A stretch of 42,090 nt of DNA from contig JAGVNJ010000045.1 of assembly GCA_020053305.1 (NCBI GenBank), forward strand, positions 1-42,090. Reading direction: 5' to 3'. Positions within the stretch are counted from its first letter, which is position 1. Every line of letters starts with the position of its first letter. This document shows positions 52 to 9,942 of the stretch, one piece after another. A program made the position numbers and the translations under genes. Below the pieces are notes generated by a model. It saw only the letters and a list, made by a program, of their open reading frames with translations, searched no databases and was not told where the DNA came from. The DNA is from Candidatus Edwardsiibacteriota bacterium. GTDB lineage: Bacteria > Edwardsbacteria > AC1 > EtOH8.

Positions 52-1041
52 CTATGCTGCATAACTCTTCACATATTTATTTGCCGGAGTAATATTATAA
101 TCGTTATAGCCGATTTTTACAGCTTTTTCTAAATAATCTATTGCTCTTTCTGTTTTACCCACATTAACATAACATAATGCAAGTGCGACATAATAAATAG
201 ATATCTGTTGATTACAGGAAATCGCTTTTAGGTAATATTTTTCGGCATCTTTATATTTACCCGCTTTTGAATATACAATGCCAATATTATGATAAGTATC
301 TGAATAGCTTGGATCAATTTTTATAGCTGTAAATAAATATTCCAACGCTTCGGCATCTTTATTTTTTTTAATTAAAATACAGCTAAGATTATTATATGCC
401 TTTGCATAATTGGGGTTATATTTTATAGCGTTTCGGTATCCCTTTTCGGCATTTTCAATATCATTTAGTTTTGTTGAATAAAAAGCAGCAATATTATTGT
501 ATCCTTCGGCATATTCTGGGTTTAATTCTAATCCCCATTTATATTCTTTCAAAGCATCCTTTGGGTTTGTGGATTCTAATAGAAGGCCCTTAAATGAATG
601 AGCAACCCCAGTATTTACACATTTCAGAGATAAATCAATATAATATAATGCTTTATCTCTGTCATTATTTCTTATTGCATTACTGCTTAATCTCCACATT
701 TTAATAGCCCTATCCCTTTTAGTAATATTTACCTCCCCTGTTTTGTTAATTTCTTTTCGTAACGCATTAATATCTTCAACTATTCTTTGTTGTACTGCAG
801 GTGTAACATTACTTAAAGCTTCAGTTATGCTTTGCTCTAATATTAATTCTTTTTTTGAATCTACTTGGATAAAATAATTTAACAAAGGTAAGAAAATGGC
901 AATTGCTACAATGGTTATTGAAAAAAGTACGTATTTGTTTTTTGGCCATTCCCTAATCTTATCCGCATATTTTGGTATTGCAAGAGCTGTTAAGCAAAAT
1001 GCAGAAATGGCGCCAAATATTAATAAGATTATCTCTTTCAT
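52..1041 (-). CDS. Membrane-anchored TPR-repeat protein
   Basis: A 329-residue protein of unknown specific role. The N-terminus has two hydrophobic segments (about residues 3-21 and 38-58), so it is probably anchored in the inner membrane. A short, probably coiled region follows, then several tandem tetratricopeptide repeats from about residue 115 to the end, recognisable by repeated blocks such as YNNIAAFYS, YNNLSCILIK and YHNIGIVYSKAGKYKDAEKYY. TPR arrays are protein-binding scaffolds, so the partner cannot be read from sequence. An AGGGA ribosome-binding site precedes the ATG. The gene is visibly AT-rich like the restriction-modification genes upstream and unlike the ATPase operon, which suggests acquisition. 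It starts 34 bases after the stop of the atpK 3'-end remnant. Confidence 0.85.
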   Translation of the reverse strand: MKEIILLIFGAISAFCLTALAIPKYADKIREWPKNKYVLFSITIVAIAIFLPLLNYFIQVDSKKELILEQSITEALSNVTPAVQQRIVEDINALRKEINKTGEVNITKRDRAIKMWRLSSNAIRNNDRDKALYYIDLSLKCVNTGVAHSFKGLLLESTNPKDALKEYKWGLELNPEYAEGYNNIAAFYSTKLNDIENAEKGYRNAIKYNPNYAKAYNNLSCILIKKNKDAEALEYLFTAIKIDPSYSDTYHNIGIVYSKAGKYKDAEKYYLKAISCNQQISIYYVALALCYVNVGKTERAIDYLEKAVKIGYNDYNITPANKYVKSYAA

Positions 1042-1075: not shown

Positions 1076-1158
1076 TTACTTCAAAATAAACGTCATCGCC
1101 AGAGCGAGCACCGCGTAGGTCTCCGGCATGGCCCCGGCCACAAGTGTCAGAATTGCCC
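1076..1158 (-). pseudogene. Remnant duplicate of the atpK 3' end
   Basis: Read on the minus strand, this stretch encodes a startless tail ending VAGAMPETYAVLALAMTFILK and a TAA stop. That is the C-terminus of V-ATPase subunit K, including the ion-binding PET glutamate. It matches the end of the intact atpK at 3613-4116 over about 63 bases (1080-1142 against 3617-3679) with three mismatches; the protein changes are V to A and F to L. In-frame upstream codons run into a stop at 1163-1165, and the methylase stop codon abuts it, so it cannot be an expressed gene. It marks the far edge of the restriction-modification cassette. Confidence 0.85.
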
Positions 1159-2715
1159 CTATTTATCTTCCTTGTTTTTTACATTTTTCGAGTTGAATAG
1201 TTCTGTACCTTCACGTATTTCCATCCCGTTTCTAGCCCAGCAGTGTTGTATACTATCATAGTGCCATCCTTTATTTTTTATTATGTCGGTGAAAGCCTGC
1301 TTACTTATGGATACAGCGCTTAGTGCGCCTTTTTCCCAAGCATCCATTATTACCCGGTTAAATAGATATTCACCATAGACATAATTGCTTTTCACAGAAC
1401 TCAAATAGTTTGCTACGCTATCCTCTACATTAAAATGTGCATTGCTCTTATTTTTCTTTACTTTTCCACTATTAAAGAAAGTTAGTATCAGCTCGCCGGC
1501 AAGAACAGATTCACTACCCTTCTTTTTATGCATCGACCAAATAGGATCGCCAACTTGTGATACTGCCGCCTGAAGCTCCATACCTGATTCAGAAGCAGAA
1601 CGTAGAATGGTTTCAAAATATATTGTATTCCAATGTTGAAATACTATTGACAGCCATCTGCCTGGCTTTAACATTTTTGCACACGCCTTAACAGACAACC
1701 CCAAACGCTCAACATATTCGTCTTCAGTATGATTAAAATCACCGCCAACTATAAGCTCCTTTTCTTTAGCTTCCTGGGGTAACGCAAGGCCCAACCAACC
1801 ATTCCATAATGTGGATAAATCGAGATATGCAATATGAGCGCCGTATGGCGGATCTGTGTATATATAATCAATTTGCCCCCTCAATTGGTCAGCAATTTCT
1901 ATAATATCTTTTTCATATGTAGCGAATTGGCCTTTCCAACCCACCGTCATTTTTTTTACTTCAATTTCCTTGTCAATTTCTTTTTTTGCTTCGAAAACAT
2001 TAGAAGCTCTTTCATGAAAGGTTTGCCAAGCTGGTAATGACACCGGCTGTTTTGCCACCTTGTAACGATAAATACTAAACAAACTTGAACCGCCCCGCGA
2101 TGCAAGGCGTCCTTCAGAAGAAAGAAATGTCTTGTTTAATTTCGTTAATGTTGCTGACCATGCCAATAGAAGGCCGTTTCGTACATATTCCTTTTTAATT
2201 CCATCTATTGCTTCTTTTAGAATTGCGAGGTTAACAAGCTGATGTGGAAGAAACAACTCATGGTATGTCACAACATCCGAATTCGCAGGAAGATTAATAT
2301 TGGGAGGCAACGTGATTTTTTTATACCATTTCTTTACTGAATTTTCATCGCTGCCTTCTATGATTTCTATATTTTTTTGACAAATATTTTGTATATCAGA
2401 CAACGCTGCATAATATTCAGAAATATTTCCTTTGTGTAAATCTGCAATACCCTGTGCTATAAAATTTGCAAATGGGTTGATATCATTTTGTATGCCCATA
2501 CGGTTGCATAGAAAGGCTTCTATGGCTGTTACCCCAGACCCACCGAATGGATCTAGAACCTTATCACCTTCTTGCGTATAATGCTGTATATACTTTTTTA
2601 CCACATTATATGGTCTGCGAGTAAAATATGGATGAACACCATAGTGCCGCCTTGCACTCTGTCGTTCGGCACTTATAGGCTTGTCAATCGGTGATATATT
2701 CTTATAAGTATTCAT
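1159..2715 (-). CDS. DNA methyltransferase (N6-adenine or N4-cytosine) of a restriction-modification pair
   Basis: A 518-residue S-adenosylmethionine-dependent DNA amino-methyltransferase. The SAM-binding motif DPFGGSG is at residues 55-61 and the catalytic DPPY motif at 288-291, with over 200 residues between them. Motif I before motif IV with a long insert fits the alpha-class layout, the insert presumably recognising the target. The HPYFTRRP block near residue 28 is also typical of such enzymes. Modification of the host site protects DNA from the partner nuclease. Its ATG overlaps the stop of the upstream nuclease gene by four bases (ATGA), so the two are translationally coupled. The gene is AT-rich against the ATPase operon. 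The methylated base and recognition site cannot be told from sequence. Confidence 0.85.
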   Translation of the reverse strand: MNTYKNISPIDKPISAERQSARRHYGVHPYFTRRPYNVVKKYIQHYTQEGDKVLDPFGGSGVTAIEAFLCNRMGIQNDINPFANFIAQGIADLHKGNISEYYAALSDIQNICQKNIEIIEGSDENSVKKWYKKITLPPNINLPANSDVVTYHELFLPHQLVNLAILKEAIDGIKKEYVRNGLLLAWSATLTKLNKTFLSSEGRLASRGGSSLFSIYRYKVAKQPVSLPAWQTFHERASNVFEAKKEIDKEIEVKKMTVGWKGQFATYEKDIIEIADQLRGQIDYIYTDPPYGAHIAYLDLSTLWNGWLGLALPQEAKEKELIVGGDFNHTEDEYVERLGLSVKACAKMLKPGRWLSIVFQHWNTIYFETILRSASESGMELQAAVSQVGDPIWSMHKKKGSESVLAGELILTFFNSGKVKKNKSNAHFNVEDSVANYLSSVKSNYVYGEYLFNRVIMDAWEKGALSAVSISKQAFTDIIKNKGWHYDSIQHCWARNGMEIREGTELFNSKNVKNKEDK

Positions 2716-3596
2716 TTGTATTCCGCAAGTTCTTGTAGGTTGAAGTTAGCTAACGCATCCAATTCAATAATATCGATATGTCTTGGGGTTTCTTTGCGCC
2801 CTTTAGTTGCGCATAGCAGAACAGCCCTGGATAATTCATCCTTTCCATATTTTTGCATCTGATATGTAAAACCGTCACTATTACGTTTCAATTCCACTGG
2901 TATTGTGTAGGTTGGGTAATTGCCGAATTTAAACTCGGTCAAGCAATCATAACCTTTGCCAACAAAACCTCCAAGTGATACGCCTAAATGCTTGAGTGGG
3001 CCTGATGCCCGAAGAATATCTGTTTCTTGAATGTGCTTGAGCCACGTTGGTCTGCAATGATCTCTGGAAATTCTTTGGAATTCTTCCTTACACCAAGAAA
3101 TAAGCCATGGGATTTCTTTCGCCATAGTAGCCATTTGTTTAAGCCAAAACGGACTACGATATGACTTGGTAAAAGTTAATGGTTTTTCTATGCTGGGGAG
3201 TCTAATTTTCTTAGATACGTCTGCATACTTACAAGCTAACGGTGTGATATAAAATGAATTATCTCGTATTTCTATATCCACATCTATTCTCTCAAAATCG
3301 CCGGTTTGTAGCTGATACCAATCACGTATAGATTCACCTATGCTTTCTTCGGCATAACCTTGTTGGATACGATCATGCCCTACTTGTCCTTTTACTAGAC
3401 GATTTCGCCCATCAAGCTTTTTATCTTTATCGACAGCGATATAATCTGATTTAGTTGCACCATAAGGGGTAACAAGTGCTACACGTACAGCCCCTTTTTT
3501 CCGTAGATGTTTTTTTACTACGGGGGTTAACTCGTGAAAGTAGTACTGAGGTCCCCCGGTATCTCTGCTTTGGCGTTTTGTTTGTTGAAGATGCAT
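2712..3596 (-). CDS. Putative restriction endonuclease (PD-(D/E)xK type)
   Basis: A 294-residue protein with no family I can name. The C-terminal third carries a PD-(D/E)xK-like pattern: Asp217 in GKGYD, a beta-strand-like stretch, then Glu235 and Lys237 in PVELK. This is the usual metal-binding nuclease core. The gene directly precedes and overlaps a DNA methyltransferase by four bases, the arrangement of a type II restriction-modification system, which is the main reason for the call. An AGGGG ribosome-binding site lies about nine bases before the ATG, only 16 bases after the stop of atpK, so it is probably co-transcribed with the ATPase operon. It could instead be another nuclease or a regulatory partner of the methylase. 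Confidence 0.6.
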   Translation of the reverse strand: MHLQQTKRQSRDTGGPQYYFHELTPVVKKHLRKKGAVRVALVTPYGATKSDYIAVDKDKKLDGRNRLVKGQVGHDRIQQGYAEESIGESIRDWYQLQTGDFERIDVDIEIRDNSFYITPLACKYADVSKKIRLPSIEKPLTFTKSYRSPFWLKQMATMAKEIPWLISWCKEEFQRISRDHCRPTWLKHIQETDILRASGPLKHLGVSLGGFVGKGYDCLTEFKFGNYPTYTIPVELKRNSDGFTYQMQKYGKDELSRAVLLCATKGRKETPRHIDIIELDALANFNLQELAEYK

Positions 3597-3612
3597 TTTG
3601 TATATCCCCTAA

Positions 3613-4116
3613 TTATTTCAAAATAAACGTCATCACCAGGGCGAACACCGCGTAGGTCTCCGGCATGGCCCCGGCCACCAGCGCGTTCCCCAGCGTGTTC
3701 TTCCCCTCCTGGATGCTCTTTATCCCCGCGGCGCAGACGATCCCCTGATACCAGGCGCTGACCAACAATATCACGCTGGCGATGGCGGCCTTGCCGGCCA
3801 CGGTGTAGGGATCGGTGGCGAAGCCGTTAAGATTGGTGAAGAATATCACCATTCCGTAGATCCCCTGGGTGGAGGGCATCAGGGCCACCGCGATGTTCTT
3901 GTAAAAATTCTCCTCGCCCCCGGCTAAAAGAGCCTGGAAGGATATCACCAGCCCGATGGCCGAGCCGGTCAACGCCAGCGACAGGCTTAAACCCATGGCC
4001 ATCTTGGCCAGCAGCGGCGCCCAGCTAAAAGTTGCCGGGGCCTCCTGGGCCAGGGCCGGGGCGGCGGCGATCATTGCCAACAGGAACATTGCCGGGATGG
4101 TAAGTTTCTTTTTCAT
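3613..4116 (-). CDS. atpK: V/A-type ATP synthase subunit K (rotor ring proteolipid)
   Basis: The membrane rotor subunit, 167 residues, with two tandem helical hairpins after an N-terminal signal-like stretch ending ALAQ near residue 24. The second hairpin carries the ion-carrying glutamate, Glu153 in AMPETYAV. The first has MPSTQG at 80-85 instead of a glutamate, so each subunit carries one ion site over four helices, as in V-type rings. Thr83, Gln84, Gln124 and Glu153 align with the sodium ligands known from Enterococcus hirae NtpK (Thr64, Gln65, Gln110, Glu139), pointing to sodium transport. It follows atpI by two bases. The last ~63 bases recur at 1080-1142 beyond the restriction-modification cassette. 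Confidence 0.95.
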   Translation of the reverse strand: MKKKLTIPAMFLLAMIAAAPALAQEAPATFSWAPLLAKMAMGLSLSLALTGSAIGLVISFQALLAGGEENFYKNIAVALMPSTQGIYGMVIFFTNLNGFATDPYTVAGKAAIASVILLVSAWYQGIVCAAGIKSIQEGKNTLGNALVAGAMPETYAVFALVMTFILK

Positions 4117-4118
4117 GT

Positions 4119-5918
4119 CTATCCTCTTTCGGTTTTGAATGGTTTGTATTCCATGCCCCCACCCTGGAAGAAATTCTTAAAGGCCTCCACAAAATGGAGC
4201 CGGGCGGAATGGACCGTGCTTCCTAGTATGGACAACGCCAGGTTGAAGCTGTGGCCGGCGATCAGGATCAGCACCGCCAGCGGAATGCCCAAAACAGGAC
4301 CGGCCGAGCCGTAGACCATCCCGGCCAGCTGGTTCATCACCGAGGCGATGGCCGAGGTGGCGATGCCCAGCCCGAACAGCCGGGCGTAGGATAAAAGATC
4401 GCCGATCAGCCCGGTCAGCCCGTAGATGCTCCACAACCCCAGCCCGATGCGGGCCAGCCAGTTCTGGTGGTCGGAGGAGAACAGCAGGGTCAACAACAGC
4501 CCCAGGATGATCAGCCCCGAACCGGCGTAATAGAGTATCGGGCTGTATGCCGCCTCGGCGAACCAGATGTTGCGGCTGACTAAGCTTACCCCGCCCCACA
4601 GGACCAGAAGAGTGGCTAATTTCTGCAGAACGCCCTGAAAGTGATTGGCCTGGAGCATCCCCAAAAGATACGAGAAGGAAAGATGCAGCACCCCCATGCC
4701 CAGCGCCAGGTAGAAGAACAGCATGGGATCCCCCACACCCACCGAGACGTCCAAAAGGATCCACTGGCGGCTGGCGAACTCGTAGCCGAACACCGAGCCG
4801 GTGATCAGCCCCACTATGATGGTGGAAACGGCGAAGGCCTGGCAAAGTTTCAGCGGCAGAATTAAGGCGGGGTTTTTCGGACCCAGTTTCTTTTCCATCA
4901 AATGGGCCGCCAGCAAAAAGACCAGCCCGTAACCGGCGTCGCTTAAGCAGATGCCGAAGAACAGTATCATGAACGGCGCAAAGAAATACGAGGGGTCCAG
5001 GTCACGATACCGGGGCAGGCCGTAGAGCTTCAGCAGGGGCTCGATCCGCCTGATGAACCAGTTGTTCTTTAAAAGCAGAGGCGGCTGTTCGTCCGGCGAA
5101 GGCCGGCGCATCTCCAGTTTTAACGGGAGGCCGCTGTCGCTGACGGTCCGCTGTAAAAGGGCTTTATTTTCGGACGGCAGCCAGCCCTCCAGCCCGAAAA
5201 GGTATTCCTGCTGGTAGAGCGCCGCGATGCTGTGATCCAATGCCGCCCGGTTGAGCGCTTCGATATATTGCTTTTTGACGGCCTCCCTTCTGCCGGCCAA
5301 TCCGGCCAGGGATCTTCTGATCTCTTCCTGCTGCTGCGACAGATCTTTATGCTCCCGGCGGGCCTGCTCCAGGCCCATCTCGGGCCAGCCCAGCAAAGTA
5401 GCGTGAAATACTTCCAGCTCGGGATGGTGGGAGATGACGAAGAACAGGGGATATTTCTTCTGCGACACCACCTGGAGATAGGCGTCATCGGGGATATTTA
5501 TGGTCTCCGGGTCCTTTTGGGTCGCCCGGTAGCGGTTGACATACAGCCCGTGCCTGCGGAGCTCCTCGGCATGGGCCGGATCGAAGTCGCCCCAGGGCTC
5601 CAGCTCGGTTATCAGATCCTCCAGATGGGCCAGCCGGGCGGTAGCCTCGCTCAGCCGTTTGGACAGCGATTCGATATAGAAGACCAGTTCGCCGTCGCTG
5701 ACATCGTTTTCGCCGTCGCCGTCCCCGCCAGAATACTTGTCCAGCAGCTTCAAGGCCGAATCGATCCGCTTGAGCTCCGGCAGATCGGCGATCTTGGAAA
5801 CTTTTTCCTTGGGCAGATCGATATGCACCACCCCGGCGCTTTGCAACAGGGCCATGGCCCTCTCCCCGGCCTGGGAGGGGCCCACCATGTAAATGCGTGT
5901 CATCGGGGCTATCGACAA
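4119..5918 (-). CDS. atpI: V/A-type ATP synthase subunit I (membrane stator)
   Basis: The large membrane stator subunit (homologue of eukaryotic subunit a). The N-terminal half is soluble and coiled-coil rich, binding the peripheral stalk. The C-terminal half has about seven membrane helices, with the characteristic SDAGYG near the first, LSYARLFGLG carrying the essential arginine, and a conserved end around HSARLHFVEAFKNFF. I place the start at a TTG (codon 5916-5918): it gives the family-typical MSIAPM start and has GGAG eight bases upstream (5927-5930). An ATG at 5903 is also possible, and an upstream ATG at 6017 adds residues unlike the family. From the TTG the protein has 599 residues. 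The gene is separated from atpD by about 350 bases of repeats. Confidence 0.93.
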   Translation of the reverse strand: MSIAPMTRIYMVGPSQAGERAMALLQSAGVVHIDLPKEKVSKIADLPELKRIDSALKLLDKYSGGDGDGENDVSDGELVFYIESLSKRLSEATARLAHLEDLITELEPWGDFDPAHAEELRRHGLYVNRYRATQKDPETINIPDDAYLQVVSQKKYPLFFVISHHPELEVFHATLLGWPEMGLEQARREHKDLSQQQEEIRRSLAGLAGRREAVKKQYIEALNRAALDHSIAALYQQEYLFGLEGWLPSENKALLQRTVSDSGLPLKLEMRRPSPDEQPPLLLKNNWFIRRIEPLLKLYGLPRYRDLDPSYFFAPFMILFFGICLSDAGYGLVFLLAAHLMEKKLGPKNPALILPLKLCQAFAVSTIIVGLITGSVFGYEFASRQWILLDVSVGVGDPMLFFYLALGMGVLHLSFSYLLGMLQANHFQGVLQKLATLLVLWGGVSLVSRNIWFAEAAYSPILYYAGSGLIILGLLLTLLFSSDHQNWLARIGLGLWSIYGLTGLIGDLLSYARLFGLGIATSAIASVMNQLAGMVYGSAGPVLGIPLAVLILIAGHSFNLALSILGSTVHSARLHFVEAFKNFFQGGGMEYKPFKTERG

Positions 5919-8176: not shown

Positions 8177-9942
8177 CTGGCCTCCTCCTTGCCCAGCATC
8201 CGTCCTATCTCCCGGCGATATCCCGTATATTTTTCTCCCTGGTAGGGGCTGTACTTCATCTGGAAGAACAGATTCTGCAGGCGGGTCATCTGGTCCCGGG
8301 CCTGCTGCTTGTTCTCGAAATCGAATTGGTGGCGGACCATCTCGGTCAACAGCAGGAAATCCTCTATCTGCCGCTGGCGCGAGGTGGCCCGGTCCACCGG
8401 GTCGAAGGAATCCTGCTGCAGGCAGGTGGCGTCCACGATCTCCGATTTCTGGTAGCTTACCAGGTCGGGCAGTGAGATGCCCTCCTCCCCCACCACCAGC
8501 ATCATCTGCCGGACGGCATGGCCGTCGGCCATCAGCTTATGGGTCTGCTTGACCCTCTCCACCCATTCCGGATGGCGCAGGTTCAGGAAATCCTCCATCT
8601 GCCTGAGGTACAGGCTCCAGGAGATCAGCGGATCGATGGCCGGATATCTCCGCTGGTCGGAGCGGCTGCGCGACAGCCCGTGGAAGGCCCCCACCACCTT
8701 CAGGGTGTTCTGGGTCACCGGCTCCTCGAAGTTGCCCCCGGCCGGGGAGACGCTGCCGATCATGGTCAGCGAGCCGGTGCTTTCGTTATGCAGTTTGACC
8801 ACCCCGGCCCGCTCATAGACCGCCGCGATCCGGCTTTCCAGGTAGGCCGGAAAGGCCTCCTCTCCCGGGATCTCCTCCAGTCGGGCCGATGACTCCCGCA
8901 GGGCCTGGGCCCAGCGCGAGGTGCTGTCGGCCAGCAGCAGGACCTTCAGGCCCAGCTGCCGGTAGTACTCGCCCAGGGTCAGCCCGGTGTAGATGGAGGC
9001 CTCCCGGGCCGCCACCGGCATGGAGGAGGTGTTGCAGATGATCACCGTCCGGTCCATCAGGGACCGCCCGGTCTGGGGGTCCTCCAGCTGGGGGAACTCC
9101 CGGATGGTCTCCACCACCTCGCCGGCCCTCTCCCCGCAGGCCACGATGATGACGATGTCGGCCTCGGCGTAGCGGGAGATGATCTGCTGCAGCACGGTCT
9201 TGCCGGCCCCGAACGGCCCGGGGATGCAGGCGGTGCCGCCCTCGGCCAGGGGGAAGAAGATGTCTATCAGCCGGCACTGGGTTAAAAGCTGCTTGTCCGG
9301 CAGCAGCCGCTCGCGGTAGGCCCGCATCGGCTGTTTCACCGGCCACTCCTGCTTCATGGCGACATTGATTTCTTGACCGTCCTGGTTTTTTATCCTGGCA
9401 ATATGAGAAGATATCTTATATTTGCCGGCCGGGGATATTTCCGTGATCTCCCAGTTGCCGGAAAGCGCCAGTGGCGCCATGATGGGATGGCCGAACAGCC
9501 CCTCGGTGACCTCGCCCAGGTATTCCCCCGCCTTGACCCGGTCCCCCTTTTTGGCCAGGGGCACGAAGTCCCAAATTTTTTCCTCGTCCAAAGGAGGAAG
9601 GTACTGGCCCCGCTTTAAAAAGAAGCCCTGGTTGTTCTCCAGCAGGGCCAACGGATTCTGCAGGCCGTCGTAGATATTGCCCAGCATGCCCGGCCCCAGC
9701 ACGGCCGACAGCACCTGTCCCGAGAAATCCACCGCATCGCCTATCATCAGCCCGGCGGTGCTCTCGAACACCTGCATGTCCACCTGGCGGCCCCTGATCC
9801 GGATGACCTCCGATTTCAGGGCCTGCCCCTGGCAATGGACATAGGCCACCTCGTTCTGCATCACCTCCCGGCCGGGATCGATCTCGGCCACCACCAGCGG
9901 CCCGTTCACCGATACCACTTTCCCCACGGTCCTGTCCGTCAC
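8173..9942 (-). CDS. atpA: V/A-type ATP synthase subunit A (catalytic)
   Basis: The catalytic head subunit, 589 residues, the usual length. It has an N-terminal barrel, the extra bulge domain of V/A-type A subunits (about residues 115-190), and the nucleotide-binding domain with Walker A GPFGAGKT near residue 240. A GERAGEV segment, a Walker B-like [16 protein letters not shown] block and the [14 protein letters not shown] segment follow. It hydrolyses or makes ATP at the interface with AtpB. The ATG overlaps the stop of the DUF2764 gene by four bases (9939-9942). Confidence 0.97.

Follow-up and report, generated by a model that had tools for sequence, protein, structure and literature searches.

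How did a restriction-modification (R-M) gene pair come to lie between an intact core gene and a second copy of that gene's end? The question is posed by atpK, the last gene of the atp operon in the window, by which we mean the whole 42,090-nucleotide stretch of DNA analysed here, from the Candidatus Edwardsiibacteriota genome G000. The intact atpK encodes the K (proteolipid) subunit of a V-type ATPase (3613..4116, minus strand; PF00137, E 1.3e-13, with matches of its product to V-ATPase K family profiles falling below the cut-off), is 98%, 93% and 88% identical to its counterparts in the relatives G002, G003 and G001, respectively, and is preceded by an intact core flank, the gene for V-type ATPase subunit I (4119..5900, minus strand; PF01496, E 1.9e-15). 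The last 69 bases of atpK (3613..3681, minus strand) recur as a direct repeat at 1076..1144 (minus strand), on the far side of the R-M pair, forming a remnant, or scar, that keeps the reading frame and ends in the same TAA stop as the intact copy (TTA on the plus strand). The two copies are identical at 64 of 69 positions, with five mismatches, and the flanks of the R-M pair match each other by blastn with an E of 3e-25. An earlier note on this DNA had correctly described a direct repeat with a shared TAA stop, but put its length at about 63 bases (69 here) and its mismatches at three (five here); the sharp edges that it reported are borne out on both sides, as likeness breaks off within a few bases of either edge of each copy. 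No further comparable copy of the atpK end was found in the 2.59-Mb genome searched. The next gene past the scar encodes a TPR protein (52..1041, minus strand, 30% GC) and also looks accessory. Because the contig ends at position 1, the join to lysC, which is on contig C35, lies outside view, and since atpK and lysC are on separate contigs in G000, the atpK-lysC interval of the window is incomplete.

Only a nuclease gene and a methylase gene lie between the repeats and no integrase gene is present there, as the earlier note had said; it was also right that the pair is AT-rich, with a GC content of 38.8% vs 59.7% for the atp genes. The gene next to atpK encodes a putative restriction endonuclease of 294 aa (2712..3596, minus strand), and it overlaps by 4 bp the gene for a 518-aa DNA adenine/N4-cytosine methyltransferase (1159..2715, minus strand; PF01555, E 7e-16), which has the catalytic motifs DPFGGSG (55) and DPPY (288), as expected of the methylase in a Type II-like R-M system, and also matches MTase_II/PglX-type PADLOC models. 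The 294-aa protein had no match in Pfam, NCBIfam, PADLOC or PDB, and its AlphaFold model is poor (mean pLDDT 58), so its designation as a nuclease rests on linkage to the methylase and on a D-X17-E-X-K pattern (D217-X17-E235-X-K237) that is invariant in an alignment of the window protein with five homologues and that, by eye, looks like that of a PD-(D/E)XK nuclease. Homologues of this protein (~50-77% identity) directly precede the same methylase in six other records (L022-L027), labelled Zixiibacteriota, Acidobacteria, Chloroflexi and Candidatus Aquidulcis. The gene order in those genomes is the same as in the window but, unlike in the window, direct repeats flank the pair at none of the six loci, indicating that the repeats are a feature of the site or of the host lineage and not of the pair. 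The six repeat-free copies, together with the occurrence of the same scars beside other cargo, speak against a mobility peculiar to R-M genes, which the earlier note had considered.

The region downstream of atpK was compared in three genomes of the same genus (G001-G003) and in one of the same family (G004). This comparison, proposed in the earlier note, supported the insertion pattern but revealed no empty site, as all same-genus relatives hold other cargo. The accessory genes of the atpK-lysC interval differ between G001, G002 and G003, and they are separated from one another by truncated atpK 3' ends or lysC 5' ends. The atpK gene of G003 is followed by a hypothetical gene and a deaminase/HATPase_c_4 gene, and an atpK tail comes after these, 2.7 kb past atpK. 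In G001, a C5-methylase/unknown/Vsr set comes after atpK, and next to it is a fused scar in which a lysC 5' head joins an atpK tail of 38 bases at a GCGGTG microhomology. A search for other genes caught between an intact atpK and an atpK remnant, also proposed earlier, was thus successful in both genomes. Past their atpK tails, G001 and G003 have a common downstream sequence (AAATAGATAAG...TGTTTTCT) that leads to a homologous 188-aa gene. Because the scar runs into the same native downstream DNA in both, it represents the displaced original end of atpK, and the supposition that the window remnant is likewise a displaced original 3' end is most likely correct.

Copies of the lysC leader and first codons also part the accessory genes, with three copies in G001, three in G002, one in G003 and one in G000 (on contig C35, upstream of lysC). 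These heads end variously, from about +20 to +85, so they have no common core cut. The atpK tail scars are 38-69 nt long, and three of the four begin within about 3 bases of one another, at -67 to -70 (GTGGCCGG); the near-identical starts are at 1144 in the window, at about 13315 in L028 and at 9327 in L029. A junction between a lysC head and a 2-oxoacid dehydrogenase acyltransferase-type gene is common to G000 and G002, and a fragment of it is left in G001 (junction loci L091 7335-7380, L030 7085-7132 and L031 near 9290-9420), indicating that scars can persist or travel with a gene.

Other core genes have scars as well. Repeated gene ends that enclose cargo were sought by a mechanical scan of sampled stretches of the genomes. 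The scan yielded tails of serS, recN and an acyl-CoA dehydrogenase gene (ACD) in G003 (400-kb sample) and, in G002 (400-kb sample), a glyS head of 205 bases together with a gatD tail that is weak (L129, E 0.004). No further clear scar was found in the approximately 340 kb of G000 that were scanned; a targeted search located a serS tail scar in this genome at C59:17502-17541. At glyS, a site without cargo exists in G001 and G003, where a 268-aa gene lies directly upstream, and in G002 the scar and a 772-aa cargo gene intervene before that 268-aa gene. Similarly, pgsA directly follows recN in G004, and in G003 these two genes are separated by an FMN-reductase gene, the recN scar and a gene of 347 aa. 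No scar survived inspection in unrelated genomes (737 kb sampled), in which the matches were paralogues or spurious, and another genus of the same family (418 kb) yielded a near-tandem duplication only. An enrichment of scars in this genus is therefore suggested, from small numbers.

Several candidates from these searches were rejected as scars: L130 is a dispersed repeat in an antisense ORF, L167 is a tandem repeat of a gene tail, L158 is the start of a paralogue, those of L093 and L098 are spurious ORFs in repeats, and the V-ATPase B head in G000 (L175) has a counterpart in G006 that is a near-tandem duplication without cargo. We also rejected an assembly artefact as the source of the pattern, which recurs across separate genomes, including two that consist of about ten contigs. 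As a separate observation, a dispersed GCGATAGG...CCTATCGC repeat family is present in two genera where the 5' end of a second V-ATPase B gene is duplicated (L175 14690-15200 and L237 18358-18782), and a repeat similar to this family adjoins the serS scar of G000.

Scars can also be nested. In G003, a 14-kb island (L029, G003:C2:58000-77000) is bounded by a bamA-like gene on one side and by a second copy of that gene's tail on the other (repeats at L029 3768-3819 and 17917-17968). The tail copy and a truncated ADP-ribosylglycohydrolase-like gene form an in-frame fusion (this name and bamA-like being readings of the sequence, not family matches), such that the far joint of the island falls at a truncated gene. 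Within the island, an atpK tail and a lysC head bracket an AAA_13 gene and a DUF2971 gene, and these nested scars adjoin an EcoRI-type methylase and a GmrSD-type nuclease (GmrSD/HNH protein). The island as a whole is defence-like in appearance. The presence of an atpK tail and a lysC head in this distant island would fit modules that move together with their scars.

Because the relatives show many leftover gene ends beside newly gained genes, the window can be regarded as one footprint of a general, integrase-free gene capture. We consider it probable that the window was shaped by gene capture with homology on one side, and that the same process recurred at the atpK-lysC interval and at other core genes of the genus. 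In such an event, a foreign fragment composed of the 3' end of a related strain's atpK followed by the R-M pair would enter the cell and recombine homologously within atpK, such that the core gene stays whole, and the other end of the fragment would be attached by an illegitimate joint without homology. This could occur by end joining of the fragment to form a circle that then integrates by a single crossover, or by an inter-chromatid form of homology-facilitated illegitimate recombination (HFIR). The product would contain, in order, the intact atpK, the cargo, the truncated old atpK end and the old downstream DNA, and repeated action of the process would account for both sides of the atpK-lysC interval and for the other core genes. 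DNA uptake, the order of the steps and the use of this route in the window itself are what we infer.

Several lines of evidence bear on this model. Homology is present on one flank only, with likeness breaking off at the cargo side of the scar. Genes for ComEC and DprA were found in 5/5 genomes searched; both proteins are also found in bacteria not known to transform readily. Ku protein was searched for and is absent, so end joining would need to be Ku-independent. In E. coli, re-circularised linear DNA that integrated by a single crossover produced insertion with partial duplication in 56 of 60 clones by PCR, and the duplications made by this circle route were 109-950 bp long in 14 sequenced clones (PMC3240628). 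Unequal inter-chromatid integration has been described in pneumococcal transformation (PMC3784515). The combination of insertion and partial duplication seen here would match either crossover of an end-joined circle or inter-chromatid integration. Further points count against the model, in addition to the absence of Ku. In its classical form, with linear DNA, HFIR usually results in a loss of target DNA (PMC3240628), so that deletion of the target and not its duplication is predicted, and random joining would not be expected to place the starts of three of the four atpK tails so close together.

Alternatively, the pair could have been inserted with a long target duplication, in which a staggered break in atpK was filled in and both copies are the recipient's own gene. 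The structure of the window is as described for R-M genes of Helicobacter pylori (PMC1643837, PMC3031569). A local duplication predicts that each scar is closest to the adjacent intact gene, and the scars were therefore compared with the alleles of each genome. At least five are closer to another genome's allele than to their own intact gene: the G003 C6 atpK tail (62/67 to G001/G002 vs 51/58 to its own), the G003 C2 atpK tail (63/67 to G000 vs 50/57), the G002 lysC head (106/110 to G003 vs 99/111), the G000 serS tail (38/40 to G003 vs 25/28) and the G002 glyS head (178/205 to G001 vs 167/198). These data argue against simple local target duplication. The own-genome allele is the closest for the serS and recN scars of G003 and for the lysC heads of G001 and G000, consistent with such duplication, and the window remnant is a tie (64/69 to each of G000, G001 and G002), its codons GCT and AAG being those of G001-G003 at two synonymous positions where the intact end in G000 reads GCC and AAA. 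When scars were compared with intact genes, the codons that differ included 45 synonymous and 36 non-synonymous ones, vs approximately 22 synonymous expected from random or neutral decay; this result is supportive only, as the intact copy is itself under selection, which contributes synonymous changes too. Occurrence of the same R-M pair elsewhere without repeats also weighs against this alternative. We regard insertion with long target duplication as an unlikely explanation of the pattern as a whole; for the window alone, a local target duplication could be the explanation.

Under another alternative, the interval is a minimal mobile element, exchanged by homologous recombination in both flanking core genes, and the scars are older, decayed duplications carried along. 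Conserved flanks with interchangeable cargo are what is seen in Neisseria, where minimal mobile elements have R-M genes as cargo, and the lysC-head/acyltransferase junction in both G000 and G002 would fit modules that travel or persist with scars. This account leaves the origin of the scars unexplained, however, as well as the mid-gene truncated end of the 14-kb island and the fused lysC/atpK scar. Clean two-sided homologous replacement was not encountered at atpK-lysC, where scars remain, and we know of no gene-end scars in the description of the Neisseria elements. We consider this alternative improbable.

Site-specific integration, with the atpK end as attachment site and a recombinase that was lost or acts in trans, is more doubtful still. 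It would explain why the 3' end of the gene is restored in frame and why three of the four atpK tail scars begin at nearly the same base, but the insert contains no integrase, the cargo is wholly different between relatives, and lysC 5' heads in the same interval and the ends of other genes are duplicated as well, with variable endpoints and no common core. The attachment site specific to atpK that the earlier note had envisaged is thus not upheld. Finally, a decayed tandem atpK paralogue unrelated to the cassette is highly improbable, as the relatives, checked for two full tandem atpK genes, yielded none and have a single full atpK each (G001, G002, G003 and G004), the scar is sharply bounded and comprises the last 69 bases only, the pattern is repeated at other genes, and we found no support for such a paralogue.

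One-sided capture, our preferred explanation, bears similarity to several known systems. Insertion of R-M genes with long target duplication (Nobusato et al. 2000, cited in PMC1643837 and PMC3031569; Furuta et al. 2010 is also cited for it) resembles the window, to the extent that these citing papers describe it, in having R-M genes flanked by long direct repeats of target sequence, with no transposase. The scars described here differ from those accounts in their many types of cargo, in the involvement of both 5' and 3' gene ends, in their serial arrays, and in that several repeat copies derive from the alleles of different lineages. HFIR and single crossover of end-joined DNA (PMC3240628, and de Vries & Wackernagel 2002 and Prudhomme et al. 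2002 as cited therein) likewise involve homology on one side and an illegitimate joint on the opposite side, and in the circle route part of the homologous end is left duplicated; those events took place in the laboratory, whereas ours are deduced from natural genomes and have short duplications (33-205 nt). HFIR has also been proposed for serial insertions at the T6SS loci of Vibrio cholerae (Kirchberger et al. 2017, PMC5361080), where, as with our scars, arrays of orphan immunity genes reflect successive one-sided insertions beside a conserved gene, with the old ends shifted downstream. Those arrays concern one type of effector/immunity locus, whereas unrelated core housekeeping genes, varied cargo and many defence genes are involved here. 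The minimal mobile elements of Neisseria (Snyder et al. 2007), as cited in PMC3388099, are like atpK-lysC in having interchangeable cargo between fixed core genes and are, in that account, unlike it in being replaced by homologous recombination in the flanks. The process is known in principle; what is new is its extent, together with the arrays, which are serial and two-sided.

It is a tentative possibility that the gene ends serve as reusable homology handles, by which a module made up of cargo and its trailing atpK tail or leading lysC head could travel and recombine into the matching core gene of other strains. If so, such loci would be integron-like arrays without an integrase. Our results also suggest that, in some cases ascribed to insertion with long target duplication, the repeat may have been imported as the allele of a neighbouring strain and not have arisen by local duplication. 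Gene-end scars record the site and order of capture of accessory and defence genes, and whose alleles came along, and they make capture that is free of transposons and integrases countable in uncultured lineages.
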